From assembly GCA_016719755.1 (NCBI GenBank), contig JADJYM010000016.1, positions 186,001-250,000 of the forward strand: a stretch of DNA of 64,000 nt, in the 5' to 3' direction. The notes under the pieces are model-generated. The model was not told where the DNA came from, made no database searches, and worked only from the letters and a program-made list of their open reading frames with translations. Shown here piece by piece: positions 56,511 through 62,620 of the stretch (positions are counted from its first letter, which is position 1; each line of letters opens with the position of its first letter). This DNA is from Novosphingobium sp. Its GTDB lineage: Bacteria > Pseudomonadota > Alphaproteobacteria > Sphingomonadales > Sphingomonadaceae. Made by a program: the position numbers and the translations under genes.

Positions 56511-56711
56511 TGTCCGCCTTGCGGCGGTGCGGAACGTTCGAGTCTTTTGTTGGGTGCGCTGTCGACATCCGTCGACAGCTTGGCCTGGCCGGCCCACTCC
56601 CCCGGCCCGACCACCCGTTTAAGGTACCCTGTGGGTGGTCGGGCCGGGGGAGTGGGCCGGCCAGGCCAGGACAGGGCGGATGCCCTGTCCGCACCGCCGT
56701 GAGGCGGACAG
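56511..56711. repeat. Modular palindromic element, copy 1 (36-bp perfect hairpin with satellites)
   Basis: Centre: arms 56581-56616 and 56633-56668 are perfectly complementary for 36 bp, loop GTTTAAGGTACCCTGT. Left satellite: GCTGTCGAC-ATCC-GTCGACAGC (56558-56579); right satellite: GGACAGGGC-GGAT-GCCCTGTCC (56669-56690). Outer edges TGTCCGCCTTGCGGCGG (56511) and CCGCCGTGAGGCGGACA (to 56711) are also mutual inverted repeats. The whole lies in the 288-bp gap between HIT and ybgC. The stem would fold in RNA from either strand. Its second copy at 62468 has a different arm sequence but compensating changes. Confidence 0.8.
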
Positions 56712-56788
56712 GAACTCGCCCAGGCCAATCGCGAAGCCGTTTACCGCACTCGACAAGTGACTCCCCCCCCGGCTAAACCCCCTGCCGC

Positions 56789-57247
56789 ATGACGTCGTTT
56801 CCGCCTCCCCCCTCCGGCCTGATCGCCGGAAAGGTCCACCGGTTCGCCGTGCGGGCCTATTTCGAGGATACGGACCTGTCTGGCGTGGTCTATCACGCCA
56901 ATTACCTGCGCTGGTTCGAACGCGCGCGGAGCGACTTTGTCCGGCTGCTGGGGATCGACCAGCGCGCCGCCAATGAAGCAGGCGAAGGCGCCTTTGCCGT
57001 CGCCGATCTTGCGATCCGCTATGCCAGCCCCGCCCGGCTGGACGATGCGGTGCAGATCGAGACGGAATGCGTTGAACTGGGTGCAGCCAGCTGCCGGATG
57101 CACCAGCGCGCCGCGCTGGAGGATGGCAGGCTGCTGGCCGAGGCCACGTTCCGCGTCGGCTTTGTCTCTCCCGAAGGCCGCCCGCGCCGCATGCCCGCGC
57201 CGTGGCGCGCGGCCTTTGCCGAAATCGTTACCGAAGGATCCCGATGA
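56789..57247 (+). CDS. ybgC: Tol-Pal-associated acyl-CoA thioesterase
   Basis: 152 aa. Hotdog fold with FAVRAYFEDTDLSGVVYHANYLRWFERARSDFVRLLGI (catalytic Asp in DTDLSGVVYHANY). First gene of the Tol-Pal operon, coupled to tolQ by ATGA. Hydrolyses acyl-CoA thioesters. Confidence 0.93.
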   Translation: MTSFPPPPSGLIAGKVHRFAVRAYFEDTDLSGVVYHANYLRWFERARSDFVRLLGIDQRAANEAGEGAFAVADLAIRYASPARLDDAVQIETECVELGAASCRMHQRAALEDGRLLAEATFRVGFVSPEGRPRRMPAPWRAAFAEIVTEGSR

Positions 57248-57951
57248 CCCAGCTTGCCCTGATCGCCGCCGCCGCAGGCTCGGCTCCCGCCCACCTCGAC
57301 CCGGTCAAGCTGTTCCTCAGCGCGGATATCGTCGTCCAGGCGGTGATGGCGGGCCTGGTGCTGGCGAGCGTGTGGGTGTGGATGATCATCATCTCGTTCA
57401 TGCTGCGCATGGTCGGCGTTCGCCGCCGCTGCGACGCCTTTGAGCGTGATTTCTGGAAAACCGCCGATTTCGAGGGGCTGCTGGCCGAAAAGGGCAAGGG
57501 CGATTCCCCTTCGGCGCGCGTTGCCTCCGCCGGCCTTGGCGAGTGGAAGCGCTCAACCGCGTCGCGCACGCCCGACCGCGATGGCACCCGCCAGCGGCTG
57601 GCAGGCGCGATGGACAGCGCCATCGCGCAGGAGGCCGAGAGCCTTGCCGAGCGGCTCAATTTCCTGGCCACGGTCGGCTCGGTCGCGCCGTTCGTCGGGC
57701 TGTTCGGGACGGTCTGGGGGATCATGAACAGCTTCTTCCAGATCGGCCAGCAGCAGAACTCTTCGCTGGCGGTGGTCGCTCCGGGCATTTCCGAGGCGCT
57801 GTTCGCCACCGCCATTGGCCTGTTCGCGGCAATCCCGGCGGTGATCGCCTACAACCGCTTCTCGCACAGCGTCGACCGGCTGGAAGCGCGGCTGCAGCGC
57901 TTTGCCGACCGCTTCCACGCCGGGCTGAGCCGCGAGCTGGACGGGAAATAG
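57244..57951 (+). CDS. tolQ: Tol-Pal system proton channel subunit
   Basis: 235 aa. First membrane segment about 28-50, then two close to the end with LNFLATVGSVAPFVGLFGTVWGIMNSFFQI and ATAIGLFAAIPAVIAYNRFSH, the MotA/TolQ/ExbB channel motif. With TolR it uses the proton gradient to energise TolA. ATG overlaps the ybgC stop. Confidence 0.97.
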   Translation: MTQLALIAAAAGSAPAHLDPVKLFLSADIVVQAVMAGLVLASVWVWMIIISFMLRMVGVRRRCDAFERDFWKTADFEGLLAEKGKGDSPSARVASAGLGEWKRSTASRTPDRDGTRQRLAGAMDSAIAQEAESLAERLNFLATVGSVAPFVGLFGTVWGIMNSFFQIGQQQNSSLAVVAPGISEALFATAIGLFAAIPAVIAYNRFSHSVDRLEARLQRFADRFHAGLSRELDGK

Positions 57952-57954
57952 GCC

Positions 57955-58401
57955 ATGGGAATCGGCCTCAACCAGCGCGGGCGCAAACGCCGCGGCCGCG
58001 CCCCGATGTCGGAAATCAACGTCACCCCGCTGGTTGACGTCATGCTGGTGCTGCTGATCATCTTCATGGTCACCGCTCCGCTGCTCAACGCGGGGGTGCC
58101 GATCGACCTGCCGGACAGCAATGCCAAGCCGCTTTCCCAGGAACAGCAGCAGGTCAACCTGTCGATGAGCCGCGACGGACGGCTCTTTATCGACGAGACG
58201 GAGCTTGCCCCGGGCGAACTCGCCGCCCGCCTTGCCGCCCTGCCGCGCGATGCCGAGGGCAAGCCGCCGCTGGTCACCCTGCGCGCCGACAAGAGCCTCG
58301 ATTACGGGGCGGTGATGGCGGTGATGGGCGAGCTTAACCGCGCCGGATTCAATTCGATCTCGCTGGTCACGGTCACCGGCGGTTCAGCCGAAACGCCATA
58401 G
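57955..58401 (+). CDS. tolR: Tol-Pal system protein TolR
   Basis: 148 aa. Single N-terminal membrane helix with essential Asp (INVTPLVDVMLVLLIIFMVTAPLL), then a periplasmic domain with the ExbD/TolR fold (LFIDETELAPGELAARLAALPRDAEGKPPLVTLRADKSLDYGAVMAVMGELNRAGF). Follows tolQ after three bases. Confidence 0.97.
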   Translation: MGIGLNQRGRKRRGRAPMSEINVTPLVDVMLVLLIIFMVTAPLLNAGVPIDLPDSNAKPLSQEQQQVNLSMSRDGRLFIDETELAPGELAARLAALPRDAEGKPPLVTLRADKSLDYGAVMAVMGELNRAGFNSISLVTVTGGSAETP

Positions 58402-58410
58402 GCCGCCTGA

Positions 58411-61606: not shown

Positions 61607-61888
61607 TCAGTCGGAGTTGAGCCGGGCGCGCATTTCCTTGCCCGGCTTGAAATAGGGCACACGCTTGCCCGGCACCTCAACCGTTTCGCCGGTCCGGGGA
61701 TTGCGCCCCCGGCGGCCTTCGCGTTCCCGTGTGGAAAATGCTCCGAAACCACGCAGCTCGACACGCCCCCCGCGTGCCAGGCGCTGGGCGATCTCGTCGA
61801 AAAAGGTCGTTACCACCTTTTCGATTTCCTCTGCACGCATGCCCGGATTCTCCCGCGCAAGCGCCTGCAGCAATTCAGACCTGATCAT
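61607..61888 (-). CDS. ihfB: Integration host factor subunit beta
   Basis: 93 aa. [90 protein letters not shown] has the RNPRTGE arm that bends DNA. Partner of IhfA. rpsA, usually upstream, is not here. Start at 61888 (MIRSELL); AGAAAGG upstream. Confidence 0.96.
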
Positions 61889-61901
61889 CGCACGCCTTTC
61901 T

Positions 61902-61919
61902 CCGGACATCAAAGTCCGG
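61902..61919 (-). promoter_or_regulatory. Leader hairpin of ihfB
   Basis: CCGGAC (61902-61907), loop ATCAAA, GTCCGG (61914-61919): perfect 6-bp stem 13 bp ahead of the ihfB start. It could mask or space the ribosome site. The stretch 61920-62084 holds no gene and no further structure that I can name. Confidence 0.3.
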
Positions 61920-62084
61920 CCCCCCTGCTGGAATAAACGCGCGGCGCAGCTTTCGACCCGGTACAAGCGGCACTGCCCCGCTTCATTGCCAGAGCGGGAA
62001 GTCCCGCGCAATGTCTAATTTCCGCGCGTTTCGGGACGAAACCTGGGAAAAAATTCAGGCACACGGACTTGCGTCGGCGGCCCT

Positions 62085-62426
62085 TCAGCCCTGTGCGAAC
62101 AGGTCCGCTTCGGCCAGGCCCAGCCGGGCGATCCGGGCACGGATCGCGGGCCATTCCACGTCAAGGAACCGTTCGCGCTCGCTGCGGCGAAGCCGGTCCG
62201 CCGCGCCGCGCGCAACGAACATGCCGACGCCGCGCTGGACCTCCACCAGGCCATCAAGCTGGAACTGCTGGTAGGCCTTGGCCACGGTCAGCGGATTGGC
62301 CCCCTGCTCGGCCGCGAAAGCGCGTACCGAAGGCAGCATCGCCCCATCGGGATAGGTGCCATCGATGATCGCACCGGCGATGTGATCGCGAAGCTTGAGA
62401 TAGACGGGCTTGCTGCTGTCGGGCAT
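62085..62426 (-). CDS. GntR family (YtrA-type) transcriptional regulator
   Basis: 113 aa. Winged helix KPVYLKLRDHIAGAIIDGTYPDGAMLPSVRAFAAEQGANPLTVAKAYQQFQLDGLVEVQRGVGMFVARGA, then a short helical tail (RLRRSERERFLDVEWPAIRARIARLGL) instead of a ligand domain, as in YtrA regulators that control ABC exporters. Start at 62426. The target is not adjacent. Divergent from the peptide transporter with the palindromic element between. Confidence 0.85.
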   Translation of the reverse strand: MPDSSKPVYLKLRDHIAGAIIDGTYPDGAMLPSVRAFAAEQGANPLTVAKAYQQFQLDGLVEVQRGVGMFVARGAADRLRRSERERFLDVEWPAIRARIARLGLAEADLFAQG

Positions 62427-62467
62427 GGTGACCCAGTGCCATAATACAGCGCAGCACGCAAGCGTGT

Positions 62468-62620
62468 TGGCCGCCTTGCGGCGATGCGGACAGGCCGTCC
62501 GGCCTGTCCTTGCAGCACCAGCCCGCTCCCCCGGCCCGACCACCCACAGGGTACCTTAAATGGGCGGTCGGGCCGGGGGAGCGGGCTGGTGCTGCAAGCC
62601 AATCGCGGAGGCGATTGGCT
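62468..62620. repeat. Modular palindromic element, copy 2
   Basis: Fills the middle of the 370-bp gap between the GntR gene and the peptide transporter. Central arms 62509-62545 and 62562-62598 pair for 37 bp with one A-C mismatch; loop ACAGGGTACCTTAAAT is the inverse complement of copy 1's loop at 15 of 16 positions. Satellites: GGACAGGCC-GTCC-GGCCTGTCC (62488-62509) and AGCCAATCGC-GGAG-GCGATTGGCT (62597-62620). Left edge GCCGCCTTGCGGCG. The remaining bases, 62621-62796, show no gene or motif. Confidence 0.8.

Follow-up and report, generated by a model that had tools for sequence, protein, structure and literature searches.

The window analyzed here is a stretch of 64,000 nucleotides (nt) of contig 16 in a 3.7-Mb Novosphingobium sp. 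genome (JADJYM010000016.1, positions 186,001 to 250,000). It carries two copies of a modular palindromic element, copy 1 in the gap between the HIT and ybgC genes and copy 2 between divergent genes. The core of copy 1 (56581-56668) is a hairpin with a 36-bp stem free of mismatches and a 16-nt loop, GTTTAAGGTACCCTGT. Copy 2 (62509-62598) has a 37-bp stem, whose sole mismatch sits in the 3′ arm, and a 16-nt loop (38 bp, one mismatch and 14 nt in the alternative notation of the scan). Reverse-complemented, its loop matches that of copy 1 at 15 of the 16 bases. The 5′ arms of the two copies share their 20 loop-proximal bases and differ at 7 of the 16 distal ones, and all these differences are compensated. 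An earlier sequence-only reading of the window had described these stems and loops, the inversion of the loop and the compensated differences between the arms, and all were confirmed when the DNA was read again. The same reading had pointed to satellite stems around the palindromes (GGACAGGGC versus GGACAGGCC and GCCAATCGC versus GCCTTTCGC, the latter at 52487). Their sequences were correct, but they are not loose neighbors: in most copies of this genome they form an inverted pair that flanks the core. The parts of both copies, and two decayed ones, are listed in Table 1.

Table 1. Parts of the palindromic element identified in the window
Feature	Coordinates	Strand	Composition
Copy 1, outer end X	56540..56557	+	GAGTCTTTTGTTGGGTGC; other copies have similar ends
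Copy 1, left satellite hairpin	56558..56579		GCTGTCGAC-ATCC-GTCGACAGC
Copy 1, core hairpin	56581..56668		perfect 36-bp stem (56581-56616/56633-56668), 16-nt loop 56617-56632 including GGTACC
Copy 1, right satellite hairpin	56669..56690		GGACAGGGC-GGAT-GCCCTGTCC
Copy 1, outer end Y	56691..56717	+	GCACC, small hairpin CCGCCGTGAGGCGG, then GAACTC
Copy 2, small hairpin of end Y	62471..62483		CCGCCTTGCGGCG
Copy 2, left satellite	62488..62509		GGACAGGCC-GTCC-GGCCTGTCC
Copy 2, core hairpin	62509..62598		stem of 37 bp (one mismatch); the 16-nt loop, 62546-62561, is inverted with respect to the loop of copy 1
Copy 2, right satellite	62598..62620		(A)GCCAATCGC-GGAG-GCGATTGGC(T)
Decayed copy	21094..21172	+	end Y, one satellite and outer core parts; core middle gone
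Decayed copy without core	52487..52557	-	intact satellite GCCTTTCGC-CTCC-GCGAAAGGC, partial second satellite, end Y

Architecture and spread of the family

BLAST listed at least 18 places in the genome, namely, the two of the window and 16 further ones that were fetched. A core hairpin folds at 16 of these 18 (L058 and L059 lack one), giving at least 16 copies, with stems of 27 to 39 bp and loops of 14 to 17 nt by scan; stems in other genomes measure 17 to 40 bp. The unit of this genome and its near relatives spans about 170 to 190 nt, with a 9-bp hairpin on either side of the core hairpin, the two being inverted relative to each other. Its outward-read order is GGTGC, a 9-bp hairpin (loop NTCC), TTGC or TTGG, the core, GCAA or CCAA, a second 9-bp hairpin (loop GGAN), and GCACC. 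When perfect stems were searched for in the 16 copies, 12 had inverted satellites on both sides, 3 had one on a single side, and 1 (L056) had none of this type. Two types of ends lie outside the satellites, X (GAGTC-TTTGT...) and Y (a small hairpin, CCGCC..GGCGG). Folding of 224-nt stretches predicted the satellites and the core side by side in most folded copies, often with a closing outer stem, and the predicted folds are very stable.

The satellites also pair far beyond expectation. A pairing-blind pattern, which took only satellites with exact GGTGC, TCC and T, recovered 41 distinct 28-mers, of which 31 pair at nine of nine positions, 9 at eight and 1 at three. Mean pairing was 96%; when the 3′ arms were re-dealt among copies 500 times, it averaged 52% and never exceeded 60%. 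In other genomes the same core is flanked by different hairpins, and 10 of the 12 copies of G005 carry AAAA..TTTT types.

Some copies show further variation in build. Those of Hephaestia and Sphingomonas (L107:2958-3033, L108, L111, and L116) have a second hairpin, CAAAGTANTACTTTG, inserted in the 3′ arm of the core, and its GC ends differ between copies in a complementary fashion. In L100 and L140, the 3′ arm of the core is broken by another palindrome, with GTCCCCCGGAC or a similar run. Extra satellites are found about 60 to 75 nt from complete units in G000 contig 12 (near 249530-249628, 344887-344975, and 378166-378267), as if the units were arranged in short arrays.

Relatives of the element were detected by BLAST in 24 of 41 surveyed genomes, that of the window included, and the further copies on which the sequence-only reading had staked its case are thus present in many related genomes. 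The core pattern allowing up to 3 mismatches matched 14 places in the Novosphingobium genome, versus 2 for the pattern read backward. Of 385 genomes sampled from Alphaproteobacteria, 21 contained its exact form (backward control, 0). In a separate draw of 398 genomes from the phylum, it occurred in 6 of the 135 within the class and in none of the 263 sampled proteobacterial genomes outside it. The pattern scan of genome contigs returned at least 116 stretches, and the record titles of the 80 listed loci name Sphingomonadales, Kordiimonadales, Minwuia, Rhodospirillales, Kiloniellales, and Acetobacteraceae. The family therefore occurs in several orders of Alphaproteobacteria, patchily. Only one of the 80 titles lies outside Proteobacteria: L165 (RPSH01000012.1), titled Bacillus sp. 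2B10, carries the element, and this record is probably mislabeled or contaminated. Copies also sit in complete-genome records (e.g., CP018227.1), which disfavors an assembly inversion as their source. We rejected the idea of a plasmid or phage element, since only 2 plasmid records matched, across 38% of the query, and no phage did.

Positions relative to genes were analyzed with a codon-usage gene caller for 93 cores, after removal of duplicate loci (L001-L015, L020, L022-L024, L026, L032, L039, and L042). None of these cores is spanned by a predicted gene, and that of L040 shares 35 nt with the end of one. Flanking genes were in tandem at 48 cores, convergent at 29 and divergent at 11, while 5 lay at locus edges without two neighbors; gaps of at least 60 nt in the window and the 80 listed loci were tandem in 127 cases, convergent in 35 and divergent in 73. 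The ratio of convergent to divergent sites thus differs sharply from this baseline (29:11 versus 35:73; P = 1.5e−5). The median distance of the core was 42 nt to the upstream stop codon in tandem pairs and 35.5 nt to the stops in convergent ones, versus about 117 nt to starts. The element inserts in intergenic DNA, mostly close behind stop codons, and a like bias has been reported for other REP families, including CGTC-1 of S. wittichii (PMC3733652).

Comparison with relatives revealed that both window copies were gained in this lineage, because all comparable loci with both flanks are empty. We fetched 29 loci for each site. At the HIT-ybgC site, both flanks were found in 28, and the core was absent from all of them; at the site of copy 2, both flanks were found in 10 (the second flank being weak in the tenth, L335), and the element was absent from all 10. 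One relative, G071, whose flanks are 88% and 86% identical, is empty at both sites and holds six fetched units elsewhere (L254-L259). Among the 28 empty HIT-ybgC sites, that of L244 carries an unrelated palindrome (hairpin score, 25) without the core motifs, so this gap admits other palindromes too.

Covariation of the arms

The core arms do not, as a rule, change independently, as the sequence-only reading had anticipated. In 85 core sequences, 97.6% of the cells pair, versus 42 to 53% in slid controls, and 12 pairs show changes on both sides. The covariation score was 0.202 versus 0.066 after shuffling, and the cells changed on both sides numbered 170 versus 41.3; none of 500 shuffles was as high in either measure. 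Part of the inner arm was fixed by the expression that selected this set, and conservation in those columns is no evidence; no such constraint acted on the 11 outer pairs or on the inner positions that vary. In 148 of 152 matches, the variable part of the inner arm was exactly complementary, so even changes in length are mirrored.

Such strong covariation is predicted both by selection on a fold and by copying of one arm from the other, the two causes between which the sequence-only reading had left the choice. They differ in the kind of change expected: a route through wobble pairs would give an excess of G-T mismatches and few transversions, and neither is seen clearly. The inner stem of 65 copies from eight genomes shows 36 distinct compensated changes (21 transitions and 15 transversions), together with 20 one-sided ones (7 G-T, 5 A-C, and 8 other). 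Among changes seen only once, 27 are compensated, 14 of them transversions, versus 20 one-sided. This count dropped five copies, three for register and two (L071 and L090) without the anchor, and genomes with few copies were not entered. The orthologous copies L264 and L269 differ by changes on both sides of three core pairs and of one pair of the left satellite, with no one-sided change in their shared 34-bp stem. The direction of the loop relative to the X and Y ends was split 7:7 in the 14 copies that could be scored among the 16 of the Novosphingobium genome.

Selection on an RNA fold, with the hairpins acting in transcripts as protectors of 3′ ends, RNase III sites or terminators behind genes, would account for the strong preference for gene 3′ ends, for the stability of the predicted folds and for the AAAA..TTTT hairpins flanking most G005 copies. 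We nevertheless regard it as unlikely. The one-sided changes give no clear wobble excess, and 15 of the 36 compensated changes are transversions; moreover, a stem of 36 bp should tolerate a lone mismatch at little cost. A scan of loops of 3 to 8 nt found no terminator-like site in either region of the window, and a T-rich run directly follows the core in 12 of the 93 copies but in none of the 16 of the Novosphingobium genome, which thus do not look like intrinsic terminators (a GC-rich stem and then a T run). Finally, 11 of the 88 classified copies, copy 2 among them, lie between divergent genes.

The composition of the arms follows a pattern of its own. Across the 93 copies, runs of C and G are near constant and the bases between them vary. 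A four-run G-quadruplex motif (runs of at least three G, spacers of 1 to 7) is present in 86 of the 3′ arms, 83 of the 5′ arms, and both arms of 79 copies, compared with 20% of shuffled arms. These counts are only suggestive of G-quadruplex potential, since some of the C runs are imposed by the register expressions.

Proposed arm copying and mobility, and their alternatives

Arm copying is favored because compensated changes outnumber one-sided ones, many of them are transversions, G-T mismatches barely exceed A-C mismatches, and loops point either way. Our preferred reading, to which we give a probability of roughly 0.6, is that of a REPIN-like, small, nonautonomous mobile element whose arms are kept complementary mainly by template-switch copying after insertion. 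The unit, with its long core palindrome flanked by inverted 9-bp hairpins and, beyond these, by short outer ends, could fold into a junction of hairpins, and a hairpin would be recognized on single-stranded DNA by an enzyme provided from elsewhere or since lost. A replication fork stalling at the hairpin would switch template and copy one arm from the other, and the same kind of event could turn the loop round, as the pattern of changes suggests. Mobility itself may also require pairing, and this would account for the continued pairing of satellite stems that otherwise vary freely. Template switching between arms has been reported to homogenize arms and invert spacers (PMC8604942), and two further papers deal with such switching at quasi-palindromes (PMC7202029 and PMC3820800).

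Several observations weigh against this reading, a first group of them against arm copying. The change counts refer to copies with shared descent, not to independent events. When the outer edge of the stem is included, the comparison gives 97 symmetric versus 73 one-sided cells. The orthologous copies L016 and L054 differ by one compensated and one one-sided change in the core, and L099 has an A-C mismatch at a pair that is intact in L021. Loop orientation in G071 is 4:1, with one copy unscored. The right-hand satellites of L264 and L269 are unlike, and the variety of satellites may reflect swapped modules. Selection on pairing may be an added or alternative cause. Differences between copies at one site may also have another origin: the site shared by L048 and L254, in two related genomes, holds units that differ in subfamily and orientation, and the units of L021 and L099 differ in subfamily at theirs. 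Repeated insertion (at a favored site in the case of L048/L254) or replacement therefore also happens and can mimic change in place.

Other observations bear on mobility and on the transposase-like processing that the sequence-only reading had named as one way of copying the arms. The unit is indeed dispersed and was gained at both sites of the window. However, no target-site duplication was readable, the empty sites being too diverged for exact junctions. The genes between paired copies at six loci looked ordinary by eye, with no family search for an autonomous partner made. This dispersal would also fit a classical miniature inverted-repeat transposable element (MITE) mobilized by a DDE transposase, which would have inverted ends (e.g., GAGTC..GACTC) and owe its symmetry to the founding copy, with renewal at each transposition. 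Such inverted ends do occur, at some copies only, and the long outer end is poorly conserved, with just 8 places within 2 mismatches in the Novosphingobium genome (6 at core-bearing copies, 1 just past copy 1, and 1 elsewhere). No duplication was seen at the diverged empty sites, and some cores have private compensated changes beyond what inheritance alone gives; we hold this origin to be quite improbable.

The suggestion of a linked RAYT gene found no support. A Y1 transposase (PF01797) was sought in the Novosphingobium genome and 40 relatives; it is missing from the former (other transposase families were not searched) and from the high-copy genomes G002, G005, G009, G013, and G014. It is present in 12 of the 41 genomes, evenly spread over carriers (7 of 24) and noncarriers (5 of 17), and we rejected the link on these grounds. 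This result also counts against the mobility proposed here. Most doubtful among the alternatives, and very improbable in our view, is an untagged relative of the CGTC/GTAG REP dimers that was moved by a RAYT since lost from the lineage. The inverted-dimer build, the 8- to 9-bp stems and a position bias like that described for S. wittichii CGTC-1 (PMC3733652) would suit it, as would the Y1 genes of the seven carriers, but the high-copy genomes named above have none, and GTAG/CGTC tags are absent as a rule.

Relation to known repeats and significance

The element has the build of REP and REPIN sequences, i.e., two short hairpins in inverted orientation with a spacer between them, in many intergenic copies. 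The GTAG/CGTC tag, searched for on either strand, adjoins only 4 of 32 outer satellite flanks in the Novosphingobium genome, where the recurrent foot is GGTGC/GCACC. The element thus works like a REPIN by build and behavior but is not classed as one, because the tag is absent as a rule and no RAYT is encoded in the genome. Rfam gave no match above the gathering score at the elements; below it, 19 matches surround copy 1, mostly microRNA-precursor models on the long hairpin (best E value, 1.5e−11). A literature search, largely without subscription papers, found no published name. The earlier statement that no named family has this architecture therefore stands as far as these searches go, although REPINs and the REP dimers with a CGTC tag are of a closely similar kind.

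Published descriptions of these systems allow a closer comparison. REPINs with their RAYT (PMC3116915) share the inverted short hairpins around a spacer, the dispersed intergenic location, the compensatory stem changes and a proposed "clover" fold. They differ in that the spacer of our element is a long conserved palindrome, its satellites keep the same loops and feet but have freely varying stems, and the genome has no RAYT. The CGTC-tagged REP dimers (PMC3733652) are likewise found in Alphaproteobacteria, with stems of 8 to 9 bp, loops of 4 to 5 nt, and mostly inverted dimers; they too are described as lying near gene 3′ ends and without association with transposase genes. Our element, in contrast, as a rule lacks the unpaired CGTC tag and has a large conserved core between the partners. 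The RIME, AB, and C palindromes of Sinorhizobium and Rhizobium (Osteras 1995, via PMC2573895) are also intergenic palindromic mosaic repeats of Alphaproteobacteria, a likeness drawn from their description only. The template switching described for quasi-palindromes (PMC8604942) matches the homogenized arms and inverted spacers seen here, but it is a mutational process, not an element, and was shown in yeast genes.

Two other features of the window were noted. Another type of palindromic repeat, CCCCTCCCGC..GCGGGAGGGG, occurs at three places (42835-42873, 47982-48020, and 48053-48080). At 50013-50103, about 90 nearly pure G bases break the end of a frame that resembles, by eye, a short-chain dehydrogenase, and this stretch looks like an assembly or polishing artifact.

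A bolder proposal, which we put forward tentatively and consider rather less probable than our preferred reading, is that of a class-wide palindromic family that repairs its own symmetry, its arms being recopied and its loops flipped in place; the C and G runs of the arms stay nearly constant as the intervening bases drift in complementary pairs, and each arm might then also be a conserved G-quadruplex that aids fork stalling or mobility. If this were true, carrier genomes would hold several recorders of template switching, and stalling would be part of the life of the element.

The family adds an untagged REPIN-like element to those of Alphaproteobacteria, in genomes that often have no Y1 transposase. 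If arm copying is the right explanation, these elements would record bacterial template switching in nature, and they would serve as a warning: even perfect covariation, which is usually taken to prove a conserved RNA fold, can arise where selection on RNA is slight or absent.

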